A stretch of DNA of 23,754 bases from the IMG/VR virus record IMGVR_UViG_3300032282_002683, positions 1-23,754 of that record; one strand, 5' to 3'. The stretch is from a virus. The notes under the pieces were generated by a model that saw nothing but the letters and a program-made list of their open reading frames with translations, did no database searches and was not told where the DNA came from. Both the position numbers and the translations under genes were made by a program. Of this stretch, positions 128 through 13,302 are shown piece after piece. The stretch's first letter is position 1. Every line of letters starts with the position of its first letter.

Positions 128-480
128 TGTCTGCCAAGAATAAAGCTAAAGGTTCAAAGTTTGAAACAGATGTAATGAAATGGTTACGCTCTAAAGGTTA
201 CACATCAGAACGTTTACGTCAAGCTGGTGCTAAAGATGAAGGCGACCTTGTTGTTTATGTTGCTGGTACACCTTATCTATTTGAATGCAAAGCAACCATT
301 AAGTTAGACTTACCCCAATTTTGGCGTGAACTACAAACAGAAGTAATAAACTACGCTGAAGCAAGAAACTTAAACGTTGGACCTATTGGTTACGTTGTTG
401 TCAAAAGACGCAACGGAAGCATTGAAGATGCTTGGGTTATCCAATCATTAGACCAATGGAGTAGGCAGTATCAACCGTGA
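127..480 (+). CDS. PD-(D/E)XK nuclease, Holliday-junction-resolvase-like
   Basis: A 117-residue protein with the spacing of a small archaeal-Hjc/VRR-like nuclease: an early Glu (E13, in SKFETDV), then the GD pair with catalytic Asp (D40), then the E-x-K motif (FECK, E53 and K55). Such enzymes bind Mg2+ and cut branched or replicating DNA; in phages they resolve junctions before packaging. The length fits a single-domain resolvase. An in-frame GTG at 115 would add four residues, but the ATG at 127 overlaps the upstream stop and is preferred. It is followed by a 4-base overlap with the methyltransferase. The exact substrate (junction resolvase or other structure-specific nuclease) is inferred. 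Confidence 0.75.
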   Translation: MSAKNKAKGSKFETDVMKWLRSKGYTSERLRQAGAKDEGDLVVYVAGTPYLFECKATIKLDLPQFWRELQTEVINYAEARNLNVGPIGYVVVKRRNGSIEDAWVIQSLDQWSRQYQP

Positions 481-1118
481 ATAATTTAACTGGTGTTAGT
501 TTGTTTGCAGGCATAGGTGGATTTGAAATCGCTATGCAACGTCAAGGTGTAGAAGTTGTTGCGTCTGTTGAAATAGATAAACACGCAAGTAAACTTTTGC
601 AAGCAAGATTTCCATTAGTAAAACATTTTACTGATGTCAAAACGGTAACTGGAAAGGAATTAATAGATGCAGGATTTAAACCGGAATCAGGAATCATTAC
701 TGGCGGATTTCCTTGCCAAGACCTCAGCGTTGCTGGACGCAGAGCTGGTCTTGAAGGAGAACGGTCAGGACTCTTTTGGGAAATCGCGAGAATCCTTGAA
801 GAAACAAAAAGCAAATACTTCATCGTTGAAAACGTCCCTGGTTTATTATCCAGTTCCAAAGGTAAAGATATGGGAATCGTTATCGGAACGTTGGTTGAAC
901 TCGGGTATGGCGTGGCGTGGAGAGTGCTTGATGCGCAGTACTTTGGAGTACCACAACGGCGCAGAAGAGTCTTTATTGTCGGATGTCTTGGAGACGAAAC
1001 AGGTGCCGGAAAAATACTTTTTGAGCGCAACGGCTTGCGAAGGGATTCTTCGCAGAGCATCACGCAGGGGCAAAAAACTTCCACAAGTATTAAAACAAGC
1101 TTTGATAAGGCAATCTAA
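477..1118 (+). CDS. C5 cytosine DNA methyltransferase, N-terminal part (motifs I-VIII)
   Basis: 213 residues carrying the AdoMet-binding and catalytic half of a DNA (cytosine-5) methyltransferase: motif I FAGIGGFE (10-17), motif IV GGFPCQDLS with catalytic Cys80, motif VI ENV (118-120) and motif VIII QRRRRVFIVG (160-169). It starts at a GTG that overlaps the upstream TGA. The frame stops at a TAA at 1116-1118 before the target-recognition region and motifs IX and X, which lie in the next ORF in another frame. It is therefore not active alone by family rules. Either it pairs with the next product as a two-subunit enzyme, or a frameshift separates the halves. Likely role: methylating phage DNA against host restriction. 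Confidence 0.85.
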   Translation: MNNLTGVSLFAGIGGFEIAMQRQGVEVVASVEIDKHASKLLQARFPLVKHFTDVKTVTGKELIDAGFKPESGIITGGFPCQDLSVAGRRAGLEGERSGLFWEIARILEETKSKYFIVENVPGLLSSSKGKDMGIVIGTLVELGYGVAWRVLDAQYFGVPQRRRRVFIVGCLGDETGAGKILFERNGLRRDSSQSITQGQKTSTSIKTSFDKAI

Positions 1119-1123
1119 TAACA

Positions 1124-1633
1124 ATGTGGTTTATTAAAACAACAAGAAGTGGTGCAAGAGATTCTGAAGGAAATCTTCCACCAGAAATTTGGACAGAAGG
1201 AGAGGTGCACCCAACATTGAATACGTTTGATAATGGAGATTCACGGTCTGTTGCAATAGTATTTCATCCACACAGACACGATGGTGCACGAATACAAGAT
1301 AAAACGTCACATACTTTAACAGCTTATATGGGAACAGGTGGTAACAATATGCCAATGGTAACTCAAGCTTATGATGAATTTAATGATAGTATTGCAGATG
1401 TTCATCATACTTTAAGGTCTGGAACTAAGCAATCAACTGGAGTTTTAACTAATACAAAAGTTCGCAGACTTATACCGTTAGAATGTGAAAGATTACAAGG
1501 ATTTCCTGATGGTTGGACAGAAGGCCAAGCTGATACACAAAGATATAAACAAATAGGAAACGCTGTAGCAGTACCAGTAGTTGAATGGATAGTCGGACAA
1601 TTAGTGGACTATGACAAACAAACACGACCTTGA
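1124..1633 (+). CDS. C5 cytosine DNA methyltransferase, C-terminal part (target recognition, motifs IX-X)
   Basis: 169 residues. The first 110 are compatible with a target-recognition domain. Residues 114-132 match motif IX (core RRLIPLECERLQGFPDGW) and 140-156 match motif X (core YKQIGNAVAVPVVEWI). No AdoMet or catalytic motif is present, so it needs the upstream ORF. It lies in a different frame from that ORF, five bases beyond its stop, and has its own ATG. Its own frame is closed by a TAA at 1106-1108, so simple slippage in the last bases cannot join the halves. Only a weak AGG lies about 13 bases upstream of the start. The gene overlaps the primase zinc-domain ORF by 23 bases. A beta-subunit of a split enzyme (like M.AquI) is the simplest reading. 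Confidence 0.8.
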   Translation: MWFIKTTRSGARDSEGNLPPEIWTEGEVHPTLNTFDNGDSRSVAIVFHPHRHDGARIQDKTSHTLTAYMGTGGNNMPMVTQAYDEFNDSIADVHHTLRSGTKQSTGVLTNTKVRRLIPLECERLQGFPDGWTEGQADTQRYKQIGNAVAVPVVEWIVGQLVDYDKQTRP

Positions 1634-3590: not shown

Positions 3591-4348
3591 AACGCATAGT
3601 AGTGCTATCGGATATGCAAATACCATTGCATAATAAACCAGCAGTAGAAGCAGTGATTAGATTTGTTAAAGACTACCAACCAGATGAACTCTTCTGTGTT
3701 GGTGATGAAGCAGATTGTTTAGCACCAGCACGTTGGTCTAAAGGATATGCTGCAGAATACAGTAATCTACAAGCAGACTTTGATGAAACAACACGCATTA
3801 TGAAAAAGTTTCGCAACGCACTTGGAGATTATCCATTTCACGTTATGAGAAGTAATCACGGTGATAGAATGCAAAGATACATAGAAAAATATGCGCCAGC
3901 ATTATCATCACTACGTGATTTAAAAATTGAAAAACAATTAAAGTATACAAGAGAACTTGATATTACTTACCATAAACAATTATGGGAATTTTATGATACA
4001 GGTTGGGTTCTTGCTCACGGTGATGAAGGACCAACGAGTAGATACCCAGGTGGCACAGCAATATCTCTTGCTAAAAAATTAAACAGGTCAGTAATTTGCG
4101 GCCATACGCATAAATTGGGATTAATCCCTCACAGTACAAGTATGAATGGAAAGCAAACTTCTTTACTGTATGGTTTTGAAGTTGGAAACATAATGGATTT
4201 GAAGCAAGCCACTTACCTTAAAGGTGGTTCAAGCAATTGGCAATCCGGTTTTGGAATCTTATACATTGATAAGAAAAAAGTAACACCAATACCAGTACCA
4301 ATGCAAAACAATTCATTTGTAGTAGAAGGTAAAGTATACAAATGGTAG
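3587..4348 (+). CDS. Calcineurin-like metallophosphoesterase
   Basis: 253 residues with the ordered metal-binding motifs of the calcineurin-like phosphoesterase fold: D9-M-Q in place of the usual DxH, GDE (39-41), NHGD (90-93), HGD (144-146) and GHTH (172-175). The fold binds two metal ions and hydrolyses phosphodiesters or phosphomonoesters. The Gln at the first motif is a deviation from D-x-H. In phages these genes often sit beside replication genes and are thought to process DNA ends or nucleotides; substrate here is unknown. The start overlaps the previous stop (ATGA), and the end overlaps the sigma-like gene by 7 bases. Confidence 0.85.
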   Translation: MKRIVVLSDMQIPLHNKPAVEAVIRFVKDYQPDELFCVGDEADCLAPARWSKGYAAEYSNLQADFDETTRIMKKFRNALGDYPFHVMRSNHGDRMQRYIEKYAPALSSLRDLKIEKQLKYTRELDITYHKQLWEFYDTGWVLAHGDEGPTSRYPGGTAISLAKKLNRSVICGHTHKLGLIPHSTSMNGKQTSLLYGFEVGNIMDLKQATYLKGGSSNWQSGFGILYIDKKKVTPIPVPMQNNSFVVEGKVYKW

Positions 4349-4965
4349 AAGACAAATGGGTACAAGATGTTGTAGAAGTAGCACAAACATCAGCGTACAT
4401 AATCACAAGAAATTATAAAGGTTTTGCTGAAGCAGACGATGTCAAACAAGAACTACTTGAATGGTCACTGAAACGACCAGACAAAATACAGGAGTGGTTA
4501 TCACCAGATTTATCTAAACAAGAATACCGACTTGGTATTAAACGTTTAGCCAAAACATTTAACCGTATGGCAGATAGACATTGTCGTAAAGAGAAAGCTA
4601 AGAAACTTGGTTACTCAATACACGATGAAGCGTTCTATTCAACAGCACTCGTTGAAGAACTTCTACCAATGGCATTCAGTTCAGACATCATCACCAAAGA
4701 CCCAGCAAGTGAATACGTTTCATCAGGTGGTGGCGACCCAGCCACAGCAGGTTCATTCCTTGCCTCAATGTATGACATACGAATAGCATTACGTGAACTA
4801 ACAATAGATTTATACGAAATACTTCGTATGCGTTACGAAGATGGTGCAAAACTTGAAGACATTGCATCATACTTTGAAGTAACTGATTCAACTATTAACA
4901 GAAAAATTAACACAGCTATTAAACAAGTAAGTAAAGAACTTGGTGGTGAATCACCTTGGGTTTAA
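4342..4965 (+). CDS. Sigma-factor-like helix-turn-helix protein
   Basis: 207 residues. Residues about 147-200 look like sigma-70 region 4: a helix (RIALRELTIDLYEILRMRY), then an HTH (GAKLEDIASYFEVTDSTINRKI) and a closing helix. The N-terminal part contains EADDVKQELLEW, reminiscent of sigma region 2. Charged helices and a Ser/Gly-rich stretch (127-138) separate them. It may redirect host RNA polymerase to middle or late promoters, or be an anti-host regulator. It overlaps its neighbours on both sides, so it is co-expressed with replication genes. Region 2 is not clear, so a non-sigma HTH protein remains possible. Confidence 0.6.
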   Translation: MVEDKWVQDVVEVAQTSAYIITRNYKGFAEADDVKQELLEWSLKRPDKIQEWLSPDLSKQEYRLGIKRLAKTFNRMADRHCRKEKAKKLGYSIHDEAFYSTALVEELLPMAFSSDIITKDPASEYVSSGGGDPATAGSFLASMYDIRIALRELTIDLYEILRMRYEDGAKLEDIASYFEVTDSTINRKINTAIKQVSKELGGESPWV

Positions 4966-6916: not shown

Positions 6917-7086
6917 CAAGCCCAACCACCCAAACAATCTTTATCGTGCACACTAATCTGTTTTAATATAAGTTTTTTAGTTGGTGCAAAAGCAATAAAC
7001 TTAGTGCAAGTAAAGCACTCATATATCCACTCTCTTGCAAACCAATCACGATAAAACTGCGGGCGCATAAGGTTAGTAGTATCCAT
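6916..7086 (-). CDS. Small Cys-rich protein, 56 residues
   Basis: A 56-codon frame from ATG 7086 to TGA 6918-6916. It overlaps the end of the transglycosylase gene by 14 bases and the next start by one base (TGATG). The product (MDTTNLMRPQFYRDWFAREW...) has Cys24-x2-Cys27 and His47/Cys51, a possible zinc site. Start-stop coupling on both sides is the main support that it is translated. Function unknown. Confidence 0.6.
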   Translation of the reverse strand: MDTTNLMRPQFYRDWFAREWIYECFTCTKFIAFAPTKKLILKQISVHDKDCLGGWA

Positions 7087-7489
7087 TAGCTTTCCTAAAC
7101 TCTAACGCTTTCTGCCAAGAACCATAACGCTCAAACACGTACTTATGTGCAGCGATAAGTTGAATACGATAATCAGCAGACTTCACAACACCAACTTGTT
7201 CCCAAGTTTGGTCAAGCAACTGACCCAAACCATACGCCGTAGAATTTTTATTCTGTGCGTCACTATTCCAAGACGACTCCAACATAATCAGTTCCTCAAG
7301 TGCTTCATACTCTTTAGCTGACACCATTTGCCTAGCATAAGAACGCGCAGACATAGGTACACGTTGTTTAACAGGTGATGAAACATAACCTGTAACAATT
7401 TTGTTTTCCTCTAATGGTTTATCAGCAGGCAACATAACGGCAAACCCAATTCCAACAATGAGCATACCAAGAATAAACTTTAACTCCAT
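7073..7489 (-). CDS. Membrane-anchored lytic transglycosylase (SLT domain)
   Basis: 138 residues. Residues 4-20 form an uncleaved-looking signal anchor (FILGMLIVGIGFAVMLP), followed by a short linker. Residues 64-138 are a small transglycosylase-like domain: ELIMLESSWN with candidate catalytic Glu71, then STAYGLGQLLDQTW (83-96) and a C-terminal YGSWQKALEFRKANGYY typical of actinobacterial SLT/Rpf-type enzymes. It should cut the glycan strand of peptidoglycan outside the membrane. An AGGAG lies six bases before the ATG, and the gene overlaps WhiB by 10 bases. Expression with a regulatory operon and the single anchor argue against a classical endolysin; a virion entry or wall-remodelling role is possible. 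Confidence 0.82.
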   Translation of the reverse strand: MELKFILGMLIVGIGFAVMLPADKPLEENKIVTGYVSSPVKQRVPMSARSYARQMVSAKEYEALEELIMLESSWNSDAQNKNSTAYGLGQLLDQTWEQVGVVKSADYRIQLIAAHKYVFERYGSWQKALEFRKANGYY

Positions 7490-7725
7490 TTACCACTCCT
7501 ATTCCTAATCTTGTATCTGTCTGGTTCGTTCGTGCCACCCCAAATACCTTTCAGCTCAGGGTCTTTCAGCGCGTAGTCTAAACATTTTTGTTTAATCTCA
7601 CATCTATTACATATTTTCTTAGGGTTCTGTATTTCAGAGAATTGACCTTTAGGGGGAAAAAATAACTCTGGGTCAATCTCAGCACACAACGCGCCTTTCC
7701 AAAAATCTTTTTCTATCAACTCCAC
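7480..7725 (-). CDS. WhiB-family iron-sulfur transcription regulator
   Basis: 81 residues with the four conserved cysteines of Wbl proteins: Cys14, then Cys39-x2-Cys42-x5-Cys48, which hold a [4Fe-4S] cluster, followed by the GIWGG turn (60-64) and a basic C-terminus (YKIRNRSGKW). Wbl proteins bind the primary sigma factor and change promoter choice; phage versions can repress host whiB genes and alter septation or superinfection. It starts at a GTG with GGGGA about seven bases upstream. It is the best marker for an actinobacterial host. Confidence 0.93.
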   Translation of the reverse strand: MELIEKDFWKGALCAEIDPELFFPPKGQFSEIQNPKKICNRCEIKQKCLDYALKDPELKGIWGGTNEPDRYKIRNRSGKWS

Positions 7726-8071: not shown

Positions 8072-8231
8072 CAGCGCCACCAACATAATCAGGTTCAAGA
8101 GTTATTTCGTAATCATCAAAATAATCTTTAGCTGTTTCCAATCTGTCGTTAGCTTGGTCTGCTGCCTCATCAGTACTATTTGCAGCAACAGTTAGCCACA
8201 CATTAGCTTTAACCCTGTATAAGTTAGCCAT
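8064..8231 (-). CDS. Small conserved-type phage protein, 55 residues
   Basis: ATG 8231 shares its A with the previous TAA (TAATG); ends at TAA 8066-8064. The pattern LYRVKANVWLTVAANSTDEAADQA (strand, then an Asp/Glu/Ala-rich helix, then a strand EITLEP) matches a common small beta-alpha-beta phage protein class of unknown function. It resembles the layout of the 88-residue gene at 8559-8825, so the two may be distant paralogues. Confidence 0.65.
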   Translation of the reverse strand: MANLYRVKANVWLTVAANSTDEAADQANDRLETAKDYFDDYEITLEPDYVGGAGE

Positions 8232-8353
8232 TATTTTACCCTCACAAGATTAGGTTTCTCCGGCATACTATCCGTCTCCGGAATATAAGTAAGCTCACGA
8301 ATAATGAACCGAAGCATAGCTTCTATTCTGTCTAAGCGTCCTTCTGTTGTCAT
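8231..8353 (-). CDS. Small helical phage protein, 40 residues
   Basis: ATG 8353 overlaps the previous stop (ATGA) and the frame ends at TAA 8233-8231. The product opens MTTEGRLDRIEAMLRFIIREL, an amphipathic coiled-coil-like helix often seen in very small actinophage proteins, followed by a polar tail. Function unknown. Confidence 0.6.
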   Translation of the reverse strand: MTTEGRLDRIEAMLRFIIRELTYIPETDSMPEKPNLVRVK

Positions 8354-8559
8354 ACTGACACCTCTTCACAACTAGGACACAACACATCTCCGTCAGGATA
8401 AATATGCCCACCCTCGTCATCAAGGTCAATAACATCAGCGCAACTAGCACACTTTGTCATACTATTTTCTTTAGTGTGCTGCTCCAAAAGCTCGTCCTCG
8501 CACACTAAACAATAGTTGCCCCAGCTTTGGCCGTGGCAAGTGATTGGGTCAAAAATCAT
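8350..8559 (-). CDS. Small zinc-ribbon-like protein, 69 residues
   Basis: Starts at ATG 8559 in a TAATG overlap. Seven Cys: Cys8, Cys17-x2-Cys20, Cys37-x2-Cys40 and Cys61-x2-Cys64; the last two pairs, separated by a 20-residue acidic loop, form a typical zinc ribbon. An internal ATG at codon 34 would give a 36-residue protein with only that ribbon. Possible nucleic-acid or protein adaptor; no family recognised. Confidence 0.65.
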   Translation of the reverse strand: MIFDPITCHGQSWGNYCLVCEDELLEQHTKENSMTKCASCADVIDLDDEGGHIYPDGDVLCPSCEEVSV

Positions 8560-8825
8560 TACCCAATCACCAACTTAGGCAAAGCAATTTCTTCTAACAA
8601 AATCTCATCGTTATCTTGAACAAGATAAACTTCAACATCGTTAGCACCCACAGAAGCATCCTCATCGGTAGCAAAATCATATTTTATTAGCTCATCAGCT
8701 TCTTCAACAGCTTTTAAGCCTGCCTCTGGACTAAGATTGCCAGTATATTCATCTAGTTCAACAGTAACCCTAGTTGAAACAACTGACCAATCTAACATCA
8801 TCATTACTTTATATTCGTATTCCAT
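8559..8825 (-). CDS. First gene of the leftward operon, acidic 88-residue protein
   Basis: Starts at ATG 8825 with GGGA about six bases upstream and ends with TAATG overlap. The sequence starts with two beta strands (YEYKVMMMLDWSV, STRVTVEL), then an Asp/Glu/Ala-rich helix (PEAGLKAVEEADELI), then a strand (NDVEVYLVQDN). It is acidic overall. The layout is like that of the 55-residue gene downstream. It is the promoter-proximal gene, about 40 bases from the predicted transcription start. Function unknown. Confidence 0.7.
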   Translation of the reverse strand: MEYEYKVMMMLDWSVVSTRVTVELDEYTGNLSPEAGLKAVEEADELIKYDFATDEDASVGANDVEVYLVQDNDEILLEEIALPKLVIG

Positions 8826-8873
8826 TAGCTATCCCTAGCCCTTCACTTATTAGTAGCTTGTGCCACTAAACCC

Positions 8874-8903
8874 ATACTTTCATCGTCCCCGCACCCCTGT
8901 CAA
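8874..8903 (-). promoter_or_regulatory. Leftward promoter for the operon 8825 to 5881
   Basis: On the minus strand TTGACA (8903-8898) is a perfect -35. An 18-base spacer leads to AAGTAT (8879-8874) as a weak -10. The spacer contains one copy of the GGTGCGGGGACG repeat, so a repressor bound there would block RNA polymerase. The 5' flank GTGTATGTGT before TTGACA is nearly identical to that of the promoter at 10758-10786. Upstream is AT-rich. The predicted leader is about 40 bases. Confidence 0.6.
8884..8895 (-). repeat. GGTGCGGGGACG repeat, copy A
   Basis: Exact 12-base copy on the minus strand, lying between the -35 and -10 of the leftward promoter. The placement suggests an operator. Confidence 0.6.
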
Positions 8904-8949
8904 ACACATACACGCAAAATTAGGTAACGTTTCTATAACAATTTTTTAG

Positions 8950-8961
8950 CGTCCCCGCACC
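8950..8961 (-). repeat. GGTGCGGGGACG repeat, copy B
   Basis: Exact 12-base copy, same orientation, two bases after the stop of the 56-residue gene and 46 bases upstream of the promoter -35. An AT-rich stretch lies between it and the promoter. Confidence 0.6.
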
Positions 8962-8963
8962 TT

Positions 8964-9134
8964 TCAACCACACCTATGTTTACGGGCAAGAATTAGCGTG
9001 TCACGCCAGCTCATAGCACCTTTACCCGACACCGCATAAGTTATTGTGTCGCACCTTTGACAATAGATTATGTAGGCACGCTCCCCGCGCTCTATCTTGA
9101 TATTGTCCCGCAATTTTGACGTCCCCGCACCCAT
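8964..9134 (-). CDS. Small Cys/His protein, 56 residues
   Basis: ATG 9134 with AAAGGGAG five bases upstream, an excellent ribosome site; ends at TGA 8966-8964. The product has CQRC (Cys25, Cys28) and a C-terminal HRC (His53, Cys55), a likely zinc site framing ITYAVSGKGAMSWRDTLILA. Codons 2-5 are formed by a copy of the GGTGCGGGGACG repeat. It stands alone between a hairpin (9156-9189) and the leftward promoter. No family recognised. Confidence 0.65.
   Translation of the reverse strand: MGAGTSKLRDNIKIERGERAYIIYCQRCDTITYAVSGKGAMSWRDTLILARKHRCG
9120..9131 (-). repeat. GGTGCGGGGACG repeat, copy C
   Basis: Exact 12-base copy covering codons 2-5 of the 56-residue gene, directly after its start codon. 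A protein or RNA contact here could control translation or transcription of that gene. Confidence 0.6.
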
Positions 9135-9155
9135 ATAAGCTCCCTTTCAATAAGT

Positions 9156-9189
9156 GAGAGCTACCAGCTAGGGTGAGCTAGTAGCCCTC
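9156..9189 (-). terminator. 14-bp RNA hairpin between two small genes
   Basis: Read on the minus strand, the arms 9189-9176 and 9169-9156 pair over 14 bp with two G-U pairs and a six-base loop. On the plus strand those two positions would be A-C mismatches, so the structure fits leftward transcripts. It lies between the membrane micro-protein gene (ending 9215) and the 56-residue gene (starting 9134). No U-tract follows, so it may be a U-less terminator, a processing site or an attenuator. Confidence 0.55.
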
Positions 9190-9214
9190 GTGTCAATCAA
9201 TTCTTATACATACC

Positions 9215-9352
9215 CTAGAACCCAGCTACCCACACCACAACTACTGCAACGACTCGCACCGTAGCAAAGAACGCCATAACACCCAGCGCACCAAGTGTCA
9301 CCGCATAGAACCGCTCACCCAGCGGGGTTAATACCAAGCGTTCTCTACTCAT
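9215..9352 (-). CDS. Small membrane protein, 45 residues
   Basis: ATG 9352 overlaps the preceding TGA (TGATG); stop TAG at 9217-9215. The N-terminus is basic and polar (MSRERLVLTPLGERFYAV), followed by a long hydrophobic segment from about residue 18 to 45 (LGALGVMAFFATVRVVAVVVVWVAGF), one or two membrane passes interrupted by an Arg. Function unknown; coupling to the zinc-finger gene suggests co-expression. Confidence 0.6.
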   Translation of the reverse strand: MSRERLVLTPLGERFYAVTLGALGVMAFFATVRVVAVVVVWVAGF

Positions 9353-9474
9353 CACTTGCCCCGCTTCGTAGCTTTTAAGTAGTTCTTACGAACACACTTA
9401 CCGCACACCTTGTGCTTAGTCATAGCTACCATTAGGTCACTATCGTCCCCGCACTGCCTACACTTACTATCCAT
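9352..9474 (-). CDS. Small zinc-finger-like protein, 40 residues
   Basis: ATG 9474 with AAAGGAG five bases upstream, the best ribosome site in the leftward block. It has two CxxC pairs (CRQC at 5-8 and CGKC at 24-27) separated by 15 residues, then a basic tail (VRKNYLKATKRGK): a compact zinc finger suited to nucleic-acid binding. Part of the first knuckle (CGD) is encoded by a copy of the repeated motif. Many actinophages carry such orphan fingers. Confidence 0.7.
   Translation of the reverse strand: MDSKCRQCGDDSDLMVAMTKHKVCGKCVRKNYLKATKRGK
9444..9455 (-). repeat. GGTGCGGGGACG repeat, copy D (one mismatch)
   Basis: AGTGCGGGGACG on the minus strand, inside the zinc-finger gene, where it encodes part of the first CxxC knuckle. 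It differs from copies A-C at the first base only. Confidence 0.5.
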
Positions 9475-9522
9475 ATAATCTCCTTTACTTGTCTATCTAG
9501 CCACCCTGAGTGACTATGGACA

Positions 9523-9549
9523 CCCCCGCACCAGCTCATAGCGCGGGGG
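9523..9549 (-). terminator. GC-rich hairpin after the 242-residue gene
   Basis: CCCCCGC (9523-9529) and GCGGGGG (9543-9549) pair perfectly around a 13-base loop, 14 bases beyond the stop of the leftward gene ending at 9563. No U-run follows, as is common for actinobacterial terminators. The 3' arm on the minus strand overlaps a degenerate copy of the repeat (GGTGCGGGGGTG, 9532-9521). Confidence 0.55.
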
Positions 9550-9562
9550 CTACCATAACTAA

Positions 9563-10291
9563 TCAGGAAGCGCGCAACACTGCCCCACACTCAGGACACG
9601 GCACATATTCCAGCTTCACATCAGAACCACGTAAAGACTCCACGTGCTCCCATAAATTCAGCTCAGCATCAGAACCAACCCTGAAAGTGTGAACCGTAGG
9701 TGAAGCTAGCTCACCGTCAGTGTTCAGCTGACCTTCCAGCTCAGCAACACCAGCGCACTGAACATCCCAGCTATCGCAAACTATCCACCCCTCATCCCAC
9801 GTATTGAAGACACGGGGGCGAGTATATCCACCGCGCACATCACACCCACCGTGAACTTGCACAATATCGCGCACAACACCGTCAGGGAACGTCACCGTCC
9901 ACCCCTGCAATGTTTGACTAAGTAAATCCCCGTCTACTTCGTAAGTATTCCAGCTGAATATCTCACTTTCAGCTACACCCCACGACTCCAACCAAGCGGG
10001 CACCGCCTCATAGTAGCTATATTCTGAGCTATTAATAAACGCGCTCAGCTGAGCATCCAGCTCGTGGTTATAGTCCAAGTGGTTCACCATATGGTGGAAC
10101 ACTGACACCGTAACCGTGTCACCGTCCAACACCGCAAGCGGAGCTTTACGGAAGTCTTCAACCGTTAGCCCCTGATTGCGTTCGTGATTACGCCCGTAAT
10201 AGCTTCCACTATCTAACAAGTTCCCACCAGTATTCTCAGTGAGCATCTCAGCTACCACATCAGCAGTAGTCACTCGTTCAACCGTCAACAT
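9563..10291 (-). CDS. Conserved phage hypothetical protein, 242 residues (MLTENTG...YGRNxERNQ type)
   Basis: 242 residues from ATG 10291 with AGAGG close upstream. The N-terminus has ADVVAEMLTENTGGNLLDSG then YYGRNHERNQG, and the middle has LLSQTLQ and VHGGCDVRGGYTRPR. I recognise this as a widespread phage/prophage protein family with no known function. The C-terminus ends in a CPEC knuckle (Cys232, Cys235), probably zinc-binding with other Cys (149, 172, 179 region). Codon choice is clearly richer in G and C than in the right-hand virion genes, and the gene is dense in AGCT. It is followed by a hairpin. Confidence 0.75.
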   Translation of the reverse strand: MLTVERVTTADVVAEMLTENTGGNLLDSGSYYGRNHERNQGLTVEDFRKAPLAVLDGDTVTVSVFHHMVNHLDYNHELDAQLSAFINSSEYSYYEAVPAWLESWGVAESEIFSWNTYEVDGDLLSQTLQGWTVTFPDGVVRDIVQVHGGCDVRGGYTRPRVFNTWDEGWIVCDSWDVQCAGVAELEGQLNTDGELASPTVHTFRVGSDAELNLWEHVESLRGSDVKLEYVPCPECGAVLRAS

Positions 10292-10315
10292 ATACCCTCT
10301 ATCCCTTGCACCCTT

Positions 10316-10385
10316 AGCTTGATAAGTTCAAGCTCCCAGCTAGCTATTAGCTAGGCGCACACCCTCAGAATCTTTCAGCTGAGGG
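10316..10385 (-). promoter_or_regulatory. Cluster of three dyads in the gap between two leftward genes
   Basis: Within 70 bases lie: a 7-bp stem with five-base loop (10316-10322/10328-10334); a 15-base near-perfect palindrome CTAGCTATTAGCTAG (10340-10354), operator-like; and a 7-bp stem with ten-base loop (10362-10368/10379-10385), 12 bases past the stop at 10397 and a plausible terminator for that gene. The first two lie just upstream of the 242-residue gene and may control it. Confidence 0.5.
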
Positions 10386-10396
10386 ATAGCGTCCAA

Positions 10397-10702
10397 CTAT
10401 AGAGAGCTAATGCGAGCTATATTCCCCTGCTCACGATTGAAAGCTTTAAGAATAGCTTCACGGTGCTCAGCTGGTAAATTACTATCAGTCCAAGAACCCA
10501 GTAAATTTACTCTATTAACAAAGCGACCATTAGGGGTTCGTCTATTACCCCACGCCATACGGTAAGTGTTCAACGTGCCGTCTTTATTAATGAACTGCTC
10601 CCAGTGAAGCTCAGTCACAAGCTCACCGTTCGCATAAATAAATTGTTCAGAACCCTCTAACTGAACTACCACTTTAACGTGAGAATTACCGTTTACGTTC
10701 AT
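10397..10702 (-). CDS. Hypothetical protein, 101 residues
   Basis: 101 residues from ATG 10702. It reads as a small beta-rich domain (SHVKVVVQLEGSEQFIYANGELVTE) followed by WEQFINKDGTLNTYRMAWGNRRTPNGRFVNRVNLLGSW and a helical end. No family recognised. An AGGACGG lies about ten bases before the start. It is the first gene of the upper leftward group, about 50 bases from a predicted transcription start. Confidence 0.6.
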   Translation of the reverse strand: MNVNGNSHVKVVVQLEGSEQFIYANGELVTELHWEQFINKDGTLNTYRMAWGNRRTPNGRFVNRVNLLGSWTDSNLPAEHREAILKAFNREQGNIARISSL

Positions 10703-10757
10703 AATCTAACCGTCCTAATTTATCTACCCTCAGCTATTACCCTAATAGCTACTACTC

Positions 10758-10786
10758 ACACTAAACGGATAGCTACCACTTGTCAA
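10758..10786 (-). promoter_or_regulatory. Leftward promoter for the gene at 10397-10702
   Basis: Minus strand: TTGACA (10786-10781), exactly 17 bases, then TAGTGT (10763-10758). The flank upstream of TTGACA (GTGTATGTGG) matches that of the promoter at 8874-8903 at 9 of 10 positions. The expected start is near 10751, about 50 bases before the ATG at 10702. Confidence 0.65.
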
Positions 10787-10809
10787 CCACATACACCCAC
10801 AATTCTTTA

Positions 10810-10825
10810 TGTGATACTCGTCACA
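10810..10825. promoter_or_regulatory. Perfect CRP-type dyad TGTGA-N6-TCACA
   Basis: TGTGATACTCGTCACA has both half-sites of the CRP/GlxR consensus with the exact six-base spacing. Its centre is about 66 bases upstream of the predicted start of the leftward promoter, in the range used for class I activation. Actinobacterial CRP-family regulators (GlxR, mycobacterial Crp) use this same consensus. Binding is inferred. Confidence 0.5.
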
Positions 10826-11100
10826 CCCCACCCCCTCACAAGCTACCAGCTGAACCCCTAACCAACACCCCCTAGATAGTCCGCTCGCCTATACGAATAA
10901 CTAGCTTGTCCTAGGTGTACAAGTGTTCTCAGCTGGGGAATACAACTACCCCCACTAATGTTCTAGCCCCGTAAACCCTAACCCTCCACCAAACATCAAC
11001 CCTTATTCTTTGACCCAGGGTATTAAACCCCACACCACGGTACGCACCCACTCTCTTGCATAATATTTTTGATAAACCTTGGTGGTGGTGGGTGGTTGTG

Positions 11101-11119: not shown

Positions 11120-11187
11120 GTTTGGCTTGTGTTTCCGCAGGTCAAAGAGGGTGCGGGAGAAATCGTAAACTCCCACCCTTGTATATA

Positions 11188-11220
11188 GTAGAGGGGCTTT
11201 TAAAAGCCCCGCCCCTCTAC
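11188..11220. other. Nested hairpin with internal palindrome
   Basis: GTAGAGGGGC (11188-11197) pairs with GCCCCTCTAC (11211-11220) over 10 bp. Inside lies an alternative perfect 18-base palindrome, GGGGCTTTTAAAAGCCCC (11193-11210). The two folds exclude each other, as in a switch or protein-recognition site. Confidence 0.6.
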
Positions 11221-11228
11221 CGGCTTGA

Positions 11229-11300
11229 GGGCTTTCAGCCCGAAAGCTCTTCGCTTCGCTTGGGGCTACGCTCAGAGCGACGAGTATATACGAGGTCGCT
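11229..11300. other. Two further small hairpins before the terminase
   Basis: GGGCT/AGCCC (11229-11233/11237-11241) closes a three-base loop. AGCGAC/GTCGCT (11276-11281/11295-11300) closes a 13-base loop. Together with the two preceding hairpins they form a structured run of about 200 bases. Confidence 0.45.
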
Positions 11301-11403
11301 CACTCACTACATTCGGTTCGCTCCCGATGAAATACTAAAAATTTTTTTACCTTATGAATGGTTATGACGGGCCATTTCTATACCTAGAGGAGTTACTAGT
11401 CTT

Positions 11404-13302
11404 ATGCTTAAACAGCAGGACAGTCTCCATCTACGATTGGCAGCAGGTAAAACTTTGGATTCTACTGAATCTAAGTCCAGGTTGCTTGAGATGATTGCTA
11501 AGGGTTTCTCTGTTGAGGATGCCTGTAAGTCTGTTGGCAAGTCCAGCAAGACGTTTTATTATTATACTAAGTCTGACCCAGATTTTGACCGTGAAGTTAA
11601 ACTTGTTCGCGCCCTTAAAGCCAGGGGTGGTCAGATTTCTGATGCTGATAAGGCTATGACGTTTAGGGATTTTCGTAAAGAGTTTATGAAGTCTGAGACG
11701 TTTGCTCATCAGCAGAACGTTATTGACCTTATTGAGAATCGTCCTCCTTCTTGGTTGCATCCTTCTATGATGTATGAGAAGGGCACTGACCAGTATGTGT
11801 TGGTCAATATGCCACCTGAGCACGCTAAGTCAATGACAGTGTCTATTGATTATATTACTTACAGAATTTGTGTTGACCCTAATGTTCGCATTAAGGTTGT
11901 TTCTAAAACCCAGCAGATGGCTAAAGAGTTTCTTTATGCTGTCAAGCAAAGGTTGACTTCCCCGTTTTATATTGACTTACAACGCAGGTTTGCACCAGCT
12001 GACGGCTTTAAAGCCACGGCTGATAAGTGGACTCAGGACGCAATTTATATTGAACGAGAGTCCGGCGAAAAAGACCCAACGTTACAGGCTCTTGGTATTG
12101 GTGGGCAAATCTATGGTGCCCGTGCTGACTTGATTATTCTTGATGACTGTGTGACTTTGTCTAATGTTGGCGAATACGAGAAACAGATTCGTTGGATTCA
12201 ACAGGAAGTTTTGACACGTATTGGTCCTACCGGTAAGTTGCTGATTGTTGGTACACGGGTTGACCCTATTGATATGTACCGTGAGCTTCGTAACAATGAC
12301 AGGTATCCTGAAGGTAAGTCTCCTTGGACTTATATGGCTATGCCTGCGGTTTTGGAGTTTGATGAAACACCTGAGAATTGGATTACTCTTTGGCCTCGCT
12401 CTGATAAGCCTTGGTCTGGTGACCCTGTTGAGCCTGATAAGGACGGTTTCTTCCCTAGATGGGATGGAACTAGATTAAGACAACGCCGTAGTGTTTTGGA
12501 TTCCAGAACGTGGGCAATGGTTTACCAGCAACAGGATGTTGAGTCTGAAGCTATTTTTTCTCCTGAACTTGTTCGTGCCGCTGCTAATGGTATGAGAGGT
12601 TGTGGTCCACTTGTTCCAGGCGCTCCTGGTTACCCTAATGATACTTCTGGTTTTTACACCGTTTGTTCTATGGACCCTGCTATGTCGGGTGACACTTTCA
12701 CAGTGGCTATTTCTGGTGACAGGTCTACTAAGAAGCGTTATCTTCTTGATGCTTCTAGGATGCCTGCTCCTACTCCTCAGCGTATAAGGGAAATAATTTT
12801 TACTTGGACAGAGAAATATAAACCTTCTGTTTGGGTTATTGAAAAAAACGCTTTCCAGTTGTTCCTTACTAGAGATGAAGAGATTAATGCTTTCCTTCAG
12901 TCAAGAGGAATCCGTTTGGTTCAACATTACACGGGTGTTAACAAGATGGACCTTGAATATGGTGTTGCTTCCCTTGCTCCTCTTTTTGGTTCTTTTGGTC
13001 CTGATGGTAAACCGGCTAAGAATGCTCTTATTGAATTGCCGAGACCAGAGTCTGAAGGCGTTAAAGCACTTATTGAACAACTGATTACTTGGTCTCCTAG
13101 TACTAAAAATAAGCAAGATGGTCCTATGGCTTTGTGGTTTGCTGAAACACAGTTAAGGGATTATGTTAACCAGTCCGGTTCTTACGGACATAGTTGGGTT
13201 AAGAACCCATTTGCAACACCTAATGCGCTTGCACAGCGCAAGGTTGTTGATTTAGAAGAATATGCAAGACAATCAAAACAAGCCAACATTCGTTGGATGT
13301 AA
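11404..13302 (+). CDS. terL: Terminase large subunit with N-terminal HTH domain
   Basis: 632 residues. Residues about 24-70 form an HTH like that of small terminase subunits (LLEMIAKGFSVEDACKSVG...). Then comes the packaging ATPase: Walker A-like PPEHAKS (137-143) and Walker B LIILDDC (243-249). The nuclease follows: CSMDPAMSGD with Asp424 and VIEKNAF with Glu480. It pumps DNA into the prohead and cuts it. AGAGGAG lies 11 bases before the ATG, a slightly long spacing. No separate small terminase gene is visible nearby, so the N-terminal HTH may contribute to DNA recognition. It starts the rightward virion module. Confidence 0.93.
   Translation: MLKQQDSLHLRLAAGKTLDSTESKSRLLEMIAKGFSVEDACKSVGKSSKTFYYYTKSDPDFDREVKLVRALKARGGQISDADKAMTFRDFRKEFMKSETFAHQQNVIDLIENRPPSWLHPSMMYEKGTDQYVLVNMPPEHAKSMTVSIDYITYRICVDPNVRIKVVSKTQQMAKEFLYAVKQRLTSPFYIDLQRRFAPADGFKATADKWTQDAIYIERESGEKDPTLQALGIGGQIYGARADLIILDDCVTLSNVGEYEKQIRWIQQEVLTRIGPTGKLLIVGTRVDPIDMYRELRNNDRYPEGKSPWTYMAMPAVLEFDETPENWITLWPRSDKPWSGDPVEPDKDGFFPRWDGTRLRQRRSVLDSRTWAMVYQQQDVESEAIFSPELVRAAANGMRGCGPLVPGAPGYPNDTSGFYTVCSMDPAMSGDTFTVAISGDRSTKKRYLLDASRMPAPTPQRIREIIFTWTEKYKPSVWVIEKNAFQLFLTRDEEINAFLQSRGIRLVQHYTGVNKMDLEYGVASLAPLFGSFGPDGKPAKNALIELPRPESEGVKALIEQLITWSPSTKNKQDGPMALWFAETQLRDYVNQSGSYGHSWVKNPFATPNALAQRKVVDLEEYARQSKQANIRWM

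Follow-up and report, generated by a model that had tools for sequence, protein, structure and literature searches.

What is a 12-base asymmetric word, GGTGCGGGGACG, doing when it recurs in a single orientation in and around the leftward genes of an uncultured phage? The sequence analyzed (hereafter the window) covers 23,754 bases, forms a fragment of a virus record and carries terminase (11404–13302) and portal genes, with the other features relevant to this question collected in Table 1. We note in passing that a cytosine-methyltransferase-like protein is split over two frames (477–1118 and 1124–1633, window 477–1633), which suggests a frameshift or an assembly error.

An oriented repeat in the window

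The initial annotation described five leftward-reading copies of the word between 8884 and 9532, with individual copies placed between promoter boxes, after a stop codon and after a start codon, at a frequency far above chance. Its coordinates and mismatch counts proved correct throughout: three copies are exact (8884, 8950 and 9120), one carries a single mismatch (9444) and one carries two (9521), all five lie on the minus strand, and the three contexts apply, in that order, to the three exact copies. As the G+C content of the DNA around the motif reaches 51%, compared to ~40% for the genome, the null expectation was taken from local sequence, using 2000 dinucleotide-keeping shuffles of 8201–11000 and a match threshold of ≤1 mismatch. 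Over this interval, the minus strand holds four copies and the plus strand none, whereas the shuffles average 0.013 copies and never exceed one, and a 12-mer present three times was encountered in none of the 2000 shuffles. The repeat is confirmed as real, and the excess holds even against this G+C-richer local DNA. We also note that positions 9001–11000 form an island of 46–51% G+C, in which plus-strand C strongly outnumbers G and AGCT/CAGCTG words are frequent.

The set of five nevertheless needs to be reduced, as two of its members are otherwise explained. The only homolog found for the gene containing the copy at 9444 (in relative L014) keeps Cys-Gly-Asp with a different Cys codon, such that this copy is probably owed to zinc-ribbon coding. 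The copy at 9521 belongs to a hairpin (minus-strand sequence CCCCCGCGC-TATGAGCTG-GTGCGGGGG), and its membership in the motif set is doubtful. A relaxed match that had been listed at 11151–11160 is unrelated to the motif: it is on the plus strand, in one arm of a conserved hairpin upstream of the terminase gene, and the arms of this hairpin are identical in a relative with a different word (L017, which carries the A word described below) and are exchanged as a pair in other phages. With 9444 explained by coding, 9521 by a hairpin arm and 11151 by an unrelated hairpin, the solid set consists of the three exact copies at 8884, 8950 and 9120 only. A further two-mismatch site, at 8493–8504, is inside the coding sequence of a gene at 8350–8559, and the word at 9079–9090 could conceivably be a degenerate copy, judging from the codon alignment of its gene with orthologs. 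A mini-ORF, GTG CGG GGA CGN followed by a stop, is readable at 8884, 8950 and 9444 and is absent from the copy at 9120.

The hairpin at 11151 is part of a conserved noncoding segment before the terminase gene (11128–11351, about 84–89% identical in several relatives). Besides this hairpin, with its arms swapped pairwise between phages, the segment holds another G+C-rich stem, GTAGAGGGGC..GCCCCTCTAC, and it may serve in packaging, as an origin or as a late promoter. A search for known RNA families found none.

Table 1. Positions of the word copies and neighboring features in the window
Feature	Position	Strand	Remarks
Copy 1 of GGTGCGGGGACG	8884–8895	−	Exact; within the −35/−10 spacer of the leftward promoter
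Copy 2 of GGTGCGGGGACG	8950–8961	−	Exact; 2 nt beyond the TGA stop of the 56-aa gene
Copy 3 of GGTGCGGGGACG	9120–9131	−	Exact; codons 2–5 of the 56-aa gene, abutting ATG 9132–9134
Single-mismatch copy	9444–9455	−	Q-C-G-D codons of a 40-aa zinc-ribbon gene (9352–9474)
Two-mismatch copy	9521–9532	−	Arm of a G+C-rich hairpin (about 9522–9548), read from sequence
Candidate degenerate copy, GCGCGGGGAGCG	9079–9090	−	C-word relatives have GGCGTGACGAGGG there, in the same gene (ortholog codon alignment)
−35 box, TTGACA	8898–8903	−	Aligned with relatives
−10 position, AAGTAT	8874–8879	−	Aligned with relatives; weak, 3/6 consensus match
Apparent 5′-terminal stem-loop, leftward transcript	8850–8870	−	TTTAGTGGC..GCTACTAA, read from aligned relatives
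56-aa zinc-finger-like gene (CxxC..HxC)	8964–9134	−	Hosts copy 3; orthologs in about 20 relatives
Intergenic hairpin, 45-aa membrane gene to 56-aa gene	9156–9189	−	Consensus fold of 14 sequences
45-aa membrane gene	9215–9352	−	Orthologs usually have a word directly after ATG; window gene has none
WhiB gene	7480–7725
Transglycosylase-like gene	7073–7489
Sigma-like gene	4342–4965

One promoter, several words

A terminase search returned many relatives, at about 68–92% identity, and GGTGCGGGGACG is absent at ≤1 mismatch from all of those fetched. The leftward promoter and its 5′-leader are alike in the window and in more than 20 metagenomic relatives, about 20 of which were aligned on TTGAC, and most of these relatives also possess the small gene located upstream. 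The order is TTGAC, the −10 element at 18 bases from the −35 hexamer, and then TTT(A/C)GTGGC; ten phages were measured, including the window, and each has a distance of 33 from TTGAC to TTT(A/C)GT. The DNA flanking the promoter is conserved among relatives, and the spacer alone changes: it holds an A word (consensus RCAACGAYAACGCG) in one group of relatives and a C word (like GCGTRACGAKRGC) in a second group, at the position where the window has copy 1. As the spacing equals that of the relatives, insertion of the 12-bp word into the spacer is ruled out. The case for this promoter is made by the alignment; a generic promoter scan of the window did not list it, because the −10 of the window is weak, the A-word relatives having CATAAT, GATAAT or AATAAT there. 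The apparent stem-loop at the start of the transcript shows a paired change in other relatives, to TTTCGTGGC..GCTACGA. Upstream of the −35 box, relatives carry a direct repeat, TTGTTATCAAATTGTTATC (for example, in L004 around 2840–2865), which is degenerate in the window. In addition, a minus-strand 24-nt near-repeat ending in TTGACA occurs at 10781–10804 and 8898–8921 (88% alike), and the former is perhaps a second leftward promoter, with a spacer lacking the word.

In each phage, its word recurs close to where the small gene upstream of the promoter begins, and usually also at the start of the preceding membrane gene; the small gene encodes 55–62 aa with the CxxC..HxC pattern in most relatives. 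Copy 3 has a counterpart close to the beginning of its ortholog in relatives, and no equivalent of copy 2 was seen at its place in them. Spacer and gene-start words agree within about 12 phages of A/A type, about 10 of C/C type and the window itself (W/W), with the words of three relatives (L022, L170 and L006) read by eye, as the automatic scan had set the zinc-finger gene to begin at a wrong position in these. The exceptions are L165, which is partly mixed, and L008 (IMGVR_UViG_3300032291_002946), which has a C word in the promoter spacer and A words in the two upstream genes, and may be a recombinant, a chimeric assembly or a sign that one regulator takes both words.

The A and C words share the core AACGATA(A/G)CGC, and the window word is the most distant of the three; one spacer, AGGCGTGACGGGGGC in L020, possibly links it to the others when compared by eye. 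The collection yielded no sister phage with the window's promoter word, no relatives through the neighboring 242-aa gene and, as far as isolated phages in the collection searched are concerned, none carrying the motif region. The string GGTGCGGGGACG+AAA is present in 13 contigs, which were not counted as relatives. A search of bacterial genomes for the host gave one metagenome bin, labeled as a beta-proteobacterium; we set this aside as a host assignment, as it is probably a binning error.

These positions bear on an explanation in which the window copies would reflect chance together with zinc-finger coding constraint. This is true of the copy at 9444, and is likely for 8493–8504, which also lies in a gene. 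For the three exact copies, it is refuted by the shuffles and by positional homology: they lie in a spacer, after a stop codon and in a part of a gene that does not encode the zinc finger, and two of the three occupy the word positions of relatives. We therefore regard this explanation as extremely improbable for the repeat overall.

Words kept as nucleotides in a leftward operon

The distribution of the words is clearest in a 41-kb relative (G001) that begins just before the terminase gene and looks nearly full length. At ≤2 mismatches, its leftward strand carries nine A words between 36.5 and 40.3 kb, against a null expectation of 0.022, and the only match outside this region, at 17.9 kb on the opposite strand, is at the level of chance. 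The sites of this relative are thus confined to the leftward operon. Four further records (G006, G011, G012 and G013) carry 5, 7, 5 and 6 copies, respectively, on a single strand in each record. Most of the nine words of G001 are inside predicted genes, and across ten A-word records the within-gene copies are spread over the three reading frames as 12/12/16, reading TTITR, NDNA and QRQR. Coding copies in all three frames point to selection on the nucleotides themselves, that is, to a word kept as DNA or as RNA. The transglycosylase gene has two A words in A-word phages (one in L009), at +83 and +126 and thus far from any start, and other codons without a word in C-word phages and in the window. 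As these words occur only in A-type phages, the sites turn over with type.

As copies flank small genes that are frequently exchanged, the words could also be gene-boundary or recombination-joint sequences that aid the shuffling of such genes and have no dedicated binder, and the leader at 8822–8875 is indeed common to phages with different downstream genes. However, partners in such exchanges should share the boundary word, whereas here it is the word that differs and the flanks that are conserved, and some copies are inside the transglycosylase gene. We consider this explanation improbable.

A word kept as RNA deserves more weight, although we still judge it unlikely. In this case, a phage protein or RNA would bind the mRNA near gene starts and control translation or termination, similarly to the start-associated sequences (SAS) discussed below or to put/nut sites, with the promoter-spacer copy acting in read-through transcripts from upstream. 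Every copy is in the sense of the leftward transcript, A-word phages have copies right after the starts of two consecutive genes, and a conserved hairpin lies between these two genes. This hairpin (9156–9189) has 10 pairs, 6 of them with compensated changes on both sides, and a loop that is CCCCTAA in most relatives, with no T-run behind it. However, the spacer copy of each phage is fixed between −35 and −10, and hence outside the transcript of that very promoter, and the transglycosylase copies are remote from any start.

The reading that we favor, and consider probable on the basis of these sequence comparisons, is that GGTGCGGGGACG and its counterparts are asymmetric operator and roadblock sites, similar to stoperators, for a phage-type-specific regulator of the leftward operon. 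The regulator would be a sequence-specific and probably phage-encoded protein. The spacer site would serve as an operator, at which the bound protein competes with RNA polymerase, while the sites that follow the start and stop codons in the upstream gene would block or pause transcription directionally, in the manner of L5 stoperators. What speaks for a DNA-binding protein, one that rivals RNA polymerase, is the fixed location between −35 and −10, and a block or pause in leftward elongation is favored by the orientation of those copies that lie just within genes or behind them. The presence of other words at the same sites in related phages suggests that the regulator and its sites co-evolve into specificity types. 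Protein binding, DNA as the target, repression and a phage-encoded binder are all steps that we infer. Counting against this proposal are the small number of firm copies in the window phage (three), the lack of a sister with its promoter word in the collection, the weak −10, the mixture of two words in L008 and the failure to find a binder.

Searches for the binder gave no candidate. The initial annotation had pointed to phage HTH and zinc-finger products, among which the 56-aa product finds no support as binder: its type-specific portion is the N-terminus, which is in large part encoded by the word, and the finger domain hardly differs between A- and C-word phages and hence does not follow the word. 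Among shared genes, this one clearly varies with type; its identities are 77% between A-word phages, 88% between C-word phages and 55% between A- and C-word phages. The product matches no Pfam or NCBIfam family and only weakly a PHROG (E 0.03); its AlphaFold model, of moderate confidence (mean pLDDT 74), consists of three strands plus one helix, and a PDB search with this predicted fold gave no confident match. Profile searches of six to seven records, including the 41-kb G001 (most records, and the window as well, being fragments), gave no match to HTH_3 or HTH_31 and only subthreshold hits to HTH_17. A scan of candidate G001 proteins likewise gave no repressor. Integrases, searched for with the profile of the tyrosine family, had no match in the records tested, and a lysogeny repressor is consequently not expected. 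The only clear HTH protein is the sigma-like one, and neither this protein nor WhiB tracks word type, such that both were rejected as type-specific binders. The binder may be encoded beyond the sequenced part, have a fold that these searches miss, or be a host protein.

The last option would turn the word types into a reflection of different host species, each contributing its own transcription factor, and the failure to find a phage repressor is in line with it. We note, however, that the terminases of A- and C-word phages are 96% identical on average and that one record mixes the two words (L008), and we judge a host factor to be about as improbable as recombination joints. The words are swapped cleanly at positions that are homologous between phages; this provides natural specificity variants and makes the hunt for the binder tractable by comparison.

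Most known cases of oriented operator sets that are specific to a phage come from temperate mycobacteriophages and related phages. Our data raise the tentative possibility, which we hold with considerably less confidence than the operator reading itself, that a nonlysogenic lineage uses stoperator-like oriented sites that lie partly in the 5′ ends of coding sequences, with a regulator other than the Rep/cI-type HTH proteins and with at least three specificity types among phages whose terminases are about 88–97% identical. If true, control through oriented sites would extend beyond lysogeny, to an uncultured WhiB-encoding lineage in which neither integrase nor repressor was detected.

Comparison with known oriented repeats

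Several groups of phages carry dispersed repeats with which these words can be compared. The Rhodococcus cluster CA phages, which are temperate and encode a repressor and an integrase, have up to 20 copies of a stoperator-like 13-bp asymmetric repeat (consensus TGTCTATTGTCAA), which is intergenic and primarily in one orientation (PMC5721134). The likeness is in the repeated asymmetric word with one orientation, the CA copies being intergenic and in temperate phages. The SAS of cluster K mycobacteriophages are also asymmetric 13-bp sequences, mostly in one orientation and restricted to nonstructural genes, of unknown function, located 3–7 bp before the start codon and containing the ribosome-binding site (PMC3203893). 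The present words share with the SAS their single orientation, their restriction to nonstructural genes and their tie to gene starts; unlike the SAS, they lie after the ATG, in a promoter spacer or inside genes, and have no Shine–Dalgarno character. The 17-bp repeats of cluster O mycobacteriophages are likewise dispersed in many copies, some of them near gene starts, in phages with no integrase or known repressor, and they are palindromic and unoriented relative to transcription (PMC4351075), whereas all three word types described here are asymmetric.

The closest comparison is with the L5-like mycobacteriophages of cluster A, to which the initial annotation had likened the repeat. In these phages, the sites are short, asymmetric and predominantly oriented with transcription, those in promoters acting as operators and those elsewhere as stoperators, the bound repressor blocks initiation as well as elongation, the words differ between phages, and inverting a site loses repression (PMC6550527, PMC9283540, PMC5712189). 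The word itself is GGTGGc/aTGTCAAG, with 20–30 sites genome-wide, mostly in short intergenic gaps, that serve Rep and lysogeny (PMC6550527, PMC9283540, PMC5712189). GGTGCGGGGACG, RCAACGAYAACGCG and GCGTRACGAKRGC have no evident relation to this word when compared by eye, they form sets of 3–9 sites in one operon with many copies just inside coding sequence, and no Rep-type HTH protein or integrase was found in the records searched, most of which are fragments. Thus, membership in the stoperator system of cluster A fails on the word, on genome-wide spread and on intergenic location. What stands of the likeness is the anatomy: the sites are asymmetric and have one orientation (in the window as well as in G001, G006 and G011–G013), one of them occupies the spacer of a leftward promoter, as a site overlaps the leftward promoter (an early one) in L5, others are at gene edges, and the word varies at homologous positions (A, C and W). 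In this anatomical sense, the stoperator holds as a working analogy for the oriented words of this lineage.
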